This document shows, in pieces, positions 46,566 to 62,670 of a stretch of 64,000 nucleotides of DNA. The notes under the pieces are model-generated. The model ran no database searches and was not told the origin of the DNA. It was given only the letters and a program-made list of their open reading frames with translations. Source of the stretch: Opitutus sp. (GTDB taxonomy: Bacteria; Verrucomicrobiota; Verrucomicrobiia; Opitutales; Opitutaceae); the NCBI GenBank assembly GCA_024998815.1, contig JACEUQ010000001.1, positions 372,001-436,000 on the forward strand, given 5' to 3'. The stretch's first letter is position 1; each line of letters opens with the position of its first letter. A program made the position numbers and the translations under genes.

Positions 46566-46604
46566 CAAACCAAAGTGTCACCTATTAGGTGACACTTTGG
46601 TTTG
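46566..46604. repeat. 39-bp perfect palindrome, GTGTCACCTA family copy 1
   Basis: CAAACCAAAGTGTCACCTA and its exact inverse flank a central T at 46585. The inner 25 bp recur at 46719-46745 and inside ogt at 62519-62545. Confidence 0.88.
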
Positions 46605-46718: not shown

Positions 46719-46745
46719 TAAGTGTCACCTAATAGGTGACACTTA
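46719..46745. repeat. 27-bp palindrome, GTGTCACCTA family copy 2
   Basis: TAAGTGTCACCTA, a central A, then TAGGTGACACTTA: perfect 13-bp arms. Confidence 0.86.
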
Positions 46746-46808: not shown

Positions 46809-46916
46809 GGTTGTCGATGAGCGGTCGATGGCGGTCGGTTGCCGATGAGCCGCCGATGGCGGTCGGTTGCCGATGAGCCGCCGATGGCGGTCATCGGTCA
46901 GCCGCCGATGGCGGTC
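46809..46916. repeat. 28-bp tandem repeat running into the moaA stop
   Basis: The units at 46809-46836, 46837-46864 and 46865-46892 (GGTTGCCGATGAGCCGCCGA then TGGCGGTC; the first unit has variants), plus a partial fourth to 46916, cover the moaA stop and its last codons (TAIGG). There are no spacers, so this is not a CRISPR. Confidence 0.85.
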
Positions 46917-62118: not shown

Positions 62119-62670
62119 TTAGGTGCGCTCCCGCCTCGTCCAAACGTATCCGCCAACAGGATTCACAGCAGGTCGGCCGGGCCACGCGCCCTCGTGGGTG
62201 AGCAGGTGCTGTTTGATGGTTGCACCAAAAGCGAATCCCCCCAGCGCACCGTCCGCGCCGATTACCCGGTGGCAGGGCACGAGCAGGGCGAGGGGATTGG
62301 CGGCGTTGGCCCGCCCGACGGCCCGCGAAGCGCCGCTTTGGCCCAGAGCCACGGCGAGTTGTCCGTAGCTGCGCGTCTGCCCGAATGGAATCGCCGCCAA
62401 TTCCGCCCACACCTGTTTTTGAAACGCGGTCCCCTGCGCCGCCATCGGTACACTGAACACGCGCCTTCTGCCGGAAAAATACTCGGCGACCTCCCGCTGC
62501 ACCGGAGCGGTTAAACCCAAAGTGGCACCTATTAGGTGACACTTTTTCGGCAGGCGGGAGCGGAGGGATGGCAGCTCGCCGAAGGCGGTGGCGAGCACTT
62601 GCCCGGCCGCGTTGACCGCCACCGAAAATGGGCCGCAGGGAGTGTCAAACGTGGAGGAATGGAGCTGCAT
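62119..62670 (-). CDS. ogt: methylated-DNA-[protein]-cysteine S-methyltransferase
   Basis: Direct-reversal repair of O6-alkylguanine. The 183-residue protein has VPCHRVIGADGALGGFAFGA with the acceptor Cys (about residue 134), the TRSYGQLAVALGQSGASRAV recognition helix and an N-terminal domain starting TPCGPFSVAVN. Residues 42-51 (KKCHLIGAT) are encoded by a copy of a palindromic repeat, keeping the frame open. That segment is a normally variable surface region, so the enzyme may still work. Confidence 0.9.
   Translation of the reverse strand: MQLHSSTFDTPCGPFSVAVNAAGQVLATAFGELPSLRSRLPKKCHLIGATLGLTAPVQREVAEYFSGRRRVFSVPMAAQGTAFQKQVWAELAAIPFGQTRSYGQLAVALGQSGASRAVGRANAANPLALLVPCHRVIGADGALGGFAFGATIKQHLLTHEGAWPGRPAVNPVGGYVWTRRERT
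62519..62545. repeat. 27-bp palindrome, GTGTCACCTA family copy 3, inside ogt
   Basis: AAAGTGGCACCTA, a central T, then TAGGTGACACTTT, with one mismatch between arms. It matches 46566-46604 and 46719-46745 and encodes about eight residues of ogt. Confidence 0.85.

Follow-up and report, generated by a model that had tools for sequence, protein, structure and literature searches.

A near-perfect palindrome lies within ogt (62119-62670, minus strand), the gene of a 183-residue methylated-DNA-[protein]-cysteine S-methyltransferase, and raises the question of whether a mobile sequence was recently inserted there in frame or whether the site has an older history. The palindrome itself (62519-62545, minus strand) is 27 bp long, with 12 of its 13 arm pairs intact and one broken. 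The window, that is, the whole stretch of 64,000 nucleotides analysed, holds two perfect, intergenic palindromes of the same family, one of 39 bp at 46566-46604 and one of 27 bp at 46719-46745, the latter with its centre base in the opposite orientation. An inner unit of 25 bp is exact at 46573-46597 (plus strand) and at 46720-46744 (minus strand), and is found with one mismatch at 62520-62544. All three copies were recovered where the preliminary description had located them, against 0.00 expected in the window from 100 shuffles, none of which contained any. Folded as single-stranded DNA, the ogt palindrome reaches -9.6 kcal/mol (z -6.5). A short tandem-like repeat, ggttgccgatgagccgccgatggcggtc, adjoins the two intergenic palindromes at 46810-46890.

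The ogt gene reads the palindrome in frame, starting at the third base of codon 42 and ending within codon 51, and residues 42-50 are indeed KKCHLIGAT, as had been described. In the predicted Ogt model, this segment is a loop with a short strand (residues 45-47), flanked by helices 33-37 and 51-66 and situated in the N-terminal part of the protein, about 30 residues ahead of the catalytic domain match (residues 82-162). Its former placement between two protein domains is therefore not exact. The nearest solved structure, 4wxc, an Ogt that we take to be from Mycobacterium tuberculosis, aligns without gaps through residues 42-50.

The preliminary description had read the palindrome as a simple insertion in this lineage, recognisable by an exact in-frame gap in the ogt of relatives. 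An alignment of 36 ogt genes was examined, a palindrome being scored if at least 7 of 12 pairs hold; rows were drawn from matches that have a locus, 12 Ada-like paralogues (L144-L155), L034 and L036-L045 were left out, and L033 and L143 are one and the same gene. In 19 of the 36 genes a palindrome is present whose centre falls on an identical base of an identical codon, a proportion not to be taken as a prevalence, as one search covered solely genomes known to hold the repeat. The remaining 17 rows keep at most 4 pairs each, about 3 being expected for random letters. Bearers within the genus are the genome of the window (G000) together with G001, G002, G003, G006, G007, G008, G009, G010, G011 and G012, and those of seven other genera are G021, G042, G060, G067, G122, G132, G157 and G159, with G122 and G157 being congeneric; the ogt of G021 has two palindromes near each other. 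No palindrome-free row among the 36 shows an exact in-frame gap of nine codons at the palindrome. On the contrary, such rows have unrelated bases at approximately equal length (G004 and G005 versus G006, G013 versus G159, and G016 versus G042), and differences between species at the site, with one genome per species, are of equal length. Thus, the simple insertion is contradicted twice, by unrelated bases at the same length and by a site shared with seven other genera. The lack of a gap in relatives and the ungapped match to 4wxc point to a palindrome that would sit in a pre-existing loop, or else to an insertion that would predate the whole sample and have been balanced by loss. The ogt copy is also unlike a recent insertion because relatives have their own version of the palindrome at the same spot.

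These versions differ in a concerted manner. Across the 19 palindrome-bearing rows, both sides have changed in 9 of the 12 pairs, and paired cells amount to 83.8%, compared with 73.3% in shuffles, with 0 of 500 shuffles as high; when partners are slid, pairing falls to 31-45%. The encoded peptide is not conserved, CHLIGDT becoming CHLISDK between rows. A first arm reading AAC, mostly CAC elsewhere, was observed in ogt of G002 (L025), G008 (L027), G010 (L028), G012 (L017) and G132 (L128), genomes that are not mutual nearest relatives, the matching change in the other arm being found solely in G008. On an ogt protein tree built with the site excluded, palindrome presence requires 7 changes, at least 6 of them by well-supported branches, on a labelling in which G010 is not included and G007 and G122, later recognised as remnants and counted among the 19, are entered as absent. 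In a tree from the DNA of three genes, G004, G005 and G006 form a group (92/95) whose internal order is not settled (67/49), so that G006 may have regained its ogt palindrome after a loss.

Beyond ogt, the core TGTCA-NN-TAWTA-NN-TGACA occurs in 51 copies in the 4.24 Mb genome (three contigs), the reversed control giving 0, and a shorter core in 53 copies, the ogt copy not counted. The mobile look attributed to the palindrome is thus justified as regards its membership of a dispersed family, but not as regards the ogt copy as an insertion, there being no gap in relatives. Set against a broad definition of REP sequences, the repeat is a short palindrome in many dispersed copies (51 by the core) and is mostly extragenic, 32 of 50 placed copies in G000 and 103 of 141 pooled over nine genomes lying outside ORFs. 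A preference for unidirectional and convergent gaps was not found: by rough gene calls, 55 intergenic copies of nine genomes lie in unidirectional, 21 in convergent and 26 in divergent gaps, versus 188, 56 and 43 such gaps in the same stretches. Taken as raw counts regardless of gap length, copies are commoner between divergent genes (26/102) than are gaps of this kind (43/287). The consensus of copies from seven genomes contains neither a GTAG nor a CGTC tetranucleotide end tag. As regards REPINs and BIMEs, defined by closely spaced pairs in opposite orientation, 9 of 16 pairs less than 160 bp apart are opposite, judged by the centre base. The repeat is present in 54 of 150 Opitutaceae genomes; in a phylum sample it was found in 16 of 387 genomes, corresponding to 16 of 37 Opitutaceae and 0 of 350 others, and a scan of named genomes returned 27 stretches, every one with a title of Opitutaceae, Opitutus, Rariglobus or a Verrucomicrobia/Opitutae bin. 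Within this sampling, the repeat does not extend beyond Opitutaceae.

Copies inside genes are nonetheless numerous. Within G000, 18 of the 50 placed palindromes (48 in stretches retrieved from the genome and 2 in the window) lie in ORFs, the ogt copy being one more, and the repeat occurs in about a dozen genes, always in a single open frame. Among its hosts are a DinG/Rad3-like helicase, NnrD-like and OleD-like enzymes, a P-type ATPase, a FolK-PabB fusion, an M32 peptidase, TatD, RsmE, an allophanate hydrolase, an RND transporter and a UvrA-like protein, this last identified by sequence reading alone, and two copies fall within a 5' extension, itself doubtful, of a protease-like ORF. Palindromes spaced by 90-91 bp were seen within an RND transporter gene (four) and at the 5' side of a protease-like ORF (three), the two series being at L108:2536-2822 and L092:2552-2749, in C2 and C3 of G000. 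Since the palindrome contains stops in two of the three frames on both strands, an in-gene copy must read CHL(I/L)GD or similar, and 38 of 38 in-gene copies are found in one frame.

In-gene insertion as a wider idea was upheld, in-frame copies being common and two genes showing short empty sites in relatives. The distance between fixed anchors of an SDR gene is 31 or 30 residues in G002, G004, G005 and G014, and 39 in G011, where a palindrome is present; 8 of the 14 parsed rows (G013 excluded) carry a palindrome, 4 are short and 2 are long without an intact one. The M32 gene, parsed in genomes other than G001, G009, G010, G011 and G025, has the palindrome in G000, G003 and G008, to which G001 is added by coordinates, is short in seven genomes (G002, G004, G005, G006, G007, G013 and G014) and is decayed in G012. 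These empty short sites indicate real insertions in both genes. Copies of different genomes share an alignment column with differing types in four genes (helicase, SDR, NnrD and P-type ATPase), although the common CHL peptide itself helps to draw in-gene copies into one column. For UvrA, two congeneric genomes agree and G000 differs, and for FolK-PabB the positions differ.

Ends (TGTCA/TGACA) and centre (TAWTA) are constant, the inner pairs are lineage-specific, and each genome has one or two palindrome types of its own. Within 13 genomes of the genus, type 1 (CACCT) and type 2 (CACTT) were counted, respectively, as 53 and 0 in G000, 6 and 24 in G001, 14 and 48 in G003, 0 and 4 in G004, 7 and 22 in G006, 0 and 43 in G008, 16 and 58 in G009, 2 and 1 in G010, and 10 and 0 in G011, with 0 and 0 in G002, G005, G007 and G012. 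By looser totals, available for five genomes, copies of neither type number 0 in G000, G009 and G010, 1 in G008 and 6 in G003; the mixed remainder of G009, which holds both types, is therefore 0 of 74. Other genera have further types, among them CATCT in G055 and TTTGTCACCT in G042 and G088, and G062 has a repeated, asymmetric mixed form. The type of the ogt copy is mostly one found in the same genome, the exception being G008, which has 43 type 2 copies, yet a private, almost perfect palindrome in ogt. Genus-mates that lack both types (G002, G005, G007 and G012) have either a decayed palindrome in ogt or none, and G004, with its 4 copies of the repeat, has lost it too.

A mobilising gene was not found from the distribution of PF01797, the neighbours of copies in nine genomes or 32 Y1 loci. 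A link to RAYT was rejected: PF01797 is present in 135 of 150 family genomes, so its presence says little (the repeat is held by 51 of these 135 and by 3 of the 15 without it), and no palindrome flanks a Y1 transposase gene at any of 32 Y1 loci, which include 3 of the 5 PF01797 matches of G000. Clustered neighbours of copies in the nine genomes turned out to be shared host genes, with no common transposase. An origin from fused IS ends was likewise set aside, unpaired half-sites being few in 240 kb of G000 and nearly all near-perfect palindromes themselves. Separately, C1, C2 and C3 of G000 contain elements of approximately 1.8 kb and 0.45 kb with ends CTGGAGTTTGGCC/GGCCAAACTCCAG, placed between two identical whole palindromes (L104:2493-4873, L085:2532-4403, L087:2512-4385, L086:2463-2981 and L093:2593-3099), as if the palindrome had been duplicated as their target site. 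The transposase of the long-form element at L104 resembles the IS701 family (156 bits, under the curated cut-off of 170).

Rickettsia palindromic elements (RPE) are in-frame palindromic inserts in protein genes that the host protein tolerates. The Opitutaceae repeat resembles them in being an in-frame palindromic insert, although the RPE lineage is unrelated. The passages of PMC3733652 used here name RPE, with RPE-1 as longer, and contain no report of type change at one RPE site or of REP type change in place. They describe in-frame REPs in DNA-repair genes and give the verrucomicrobium Opitutus terrae as richest in intragenic GTAG repeats; recB is said there to carry REPs at nearly matching positions in two Xanthomonas species, the sites differing in other genes. 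As portrayed there, the GTAG/CGTC REPs are, like the present family, palindromic repeats of 20-40 bp with dimers, many in-frame genic copies and DNA-repair hosts; the Opitutaceae core differs in having no tag, a near-perfect self-complementary unit and no adjoining transposase, and in not being depleted between divergent genes. The TIRYT repeats of the same passages (PMC3733652) are similarly short, wholly self-complementary and partly paired, but flank a tyrosine transposase gene, whereas the Opitutaceae palindrome is at 0 of 32 Y1 loci. For IS1272, the portion of PMC5678879 consulted describes a varied inverted repeat serving as target and being exchanged for another with the terminal inverted repeats, an outcome like that proposed for ogt, namely an inverted repeat replaced in place; it concerns a full IS with transposase in closely related strains, and the Opitutaceae case solo palindromes compared at species level. 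The letters of the palindrome core did not occur in the literature searched, and Verrucomicrobia and Opitutus are not named in the part of PMC12306157 seen.

Considered together, these results lead us to favour an REP-like family restricted to Opitutaceae, whose old sites, ogt included, would stay palindromic and be rewritten to the local type, an account to which, as a whole, we give an even chance. That ogt holds an old, shared, rewritten site of this family is quite probable; that replacement is hairpin-directed is put forward tentatively; and that an Opitutaceae system rewrites hairpin sites as whole units, the current type replacing older palindromes without a Y1 transposase, is rather doubtful. 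Palindrome copies would have entered genes in the past and persisted there solely in the open frame, as CHLIGD or CHLISD peptides. The ogt copy would be old and shared and occupy a loop that was already there; it would keep its palindromic form through base changes that come in matched pairs, mostly towards a type that its own genome contains. Instead of slow point mutation, hairpin-directed replacement or copying would rewrite whole units, and the current type would spread by in-place replacement, also within genes, with length and frame unchanged. The same ogt codons would in this way have undergone several rounds of recoding by matched base pairs. Considering (i) the constant palindromy at one codon position, (ii) the genome-linked types and (iii) the lack of mixed copies in G009, whole-unit rewriting is suggested, and hairpin-directed replacement is preferred because IS1272 is reported to replace varied inverted repeats in place, in the portion of PMC5678879 consulted. 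Several observations count against rewriting, namely the asymmetric mixed form of G062, the 6 copies of neither type in G003, the lack of a mobilising gene in the searches above and of depletion between divergent genes, as well as G008, whose private palindrome in ogt has the look of local change, one pair at a time. Recombination between congeners could be the source of part of the type pattern.

The main rival, unlikely in our judgement, regards the palindromes as sites to which a dimeric, sequence-specific protein would bind, with a role in chromosome organisation or regulation; point mutation would create and alter them, and the types would follow shifts of the protein's specificity. It would accommodate the constant ends and centre with lineage-specific inner pairs, the keeping of the same site across genera in ogt and other host genes, and the enrichment between divergent genes; less easily reconciled with it are the two discrete types of G009 with no mixed copy, the entry of copies into SDR and M32 coding sequence as inserted linkers, and several host genes without a common function. 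Local template switching (quasi-palindrome correction), by which one palindrome arm is copied onto the other, would renew palindromes without any transposase, and the matched pair changes at ogt and the private palindrome of G008 agree with it. Locus-specific outer arms, which such switching may add, show more pairing than shuffled ones in G000 (0 of 2000 shuffles reach it) and G042 (6 of 2000), but of the 7 genomes compared, the other 5 give a weak signal (82 of 2000 in G114 and 176 of 2000 in G008) or none (G001, G055 and G088). Template switching also leaves unexplained why some 50 sites of a genome share one type and how the repeat spreads to new sites, and we consider it decidedly improbable. 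That a mobile palindrome was recently inserted in frame into the ogt gene of this lineage is very hard to sustain: the family is dispersed and genuine in-frame insertions exist in other genes, but the aligned ogt genes show no exact gap, length is equal without the palindrome, the same site is used in seven other genera and the solved Ogt matches without a gap. Scarcely credible, finally, is an RNA hairpin acting in ogt mRNA; the fold is stable, by DNA parameters, and there is covariation, but sense-strand G-T cells of the ogt core (8 of 190) are no commoner than A-C cells (10 of 190), which speaks against it, and the window has 0 Rfam matches.

The usual picture of REP-like repeats within genes is one of tolerated insertions at scattered places. 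At ogt, a single codon position has palindromes that differ by lineage across eight genera; their base changes are matched, and the peptide varies along with them. An in-frame palindrome within a gene is no proof of recent insertion, and the ogt palindromes provide natural before-and-after states for asking whether dispersed palindromes are kept alike by copying, by replacement or by selection.
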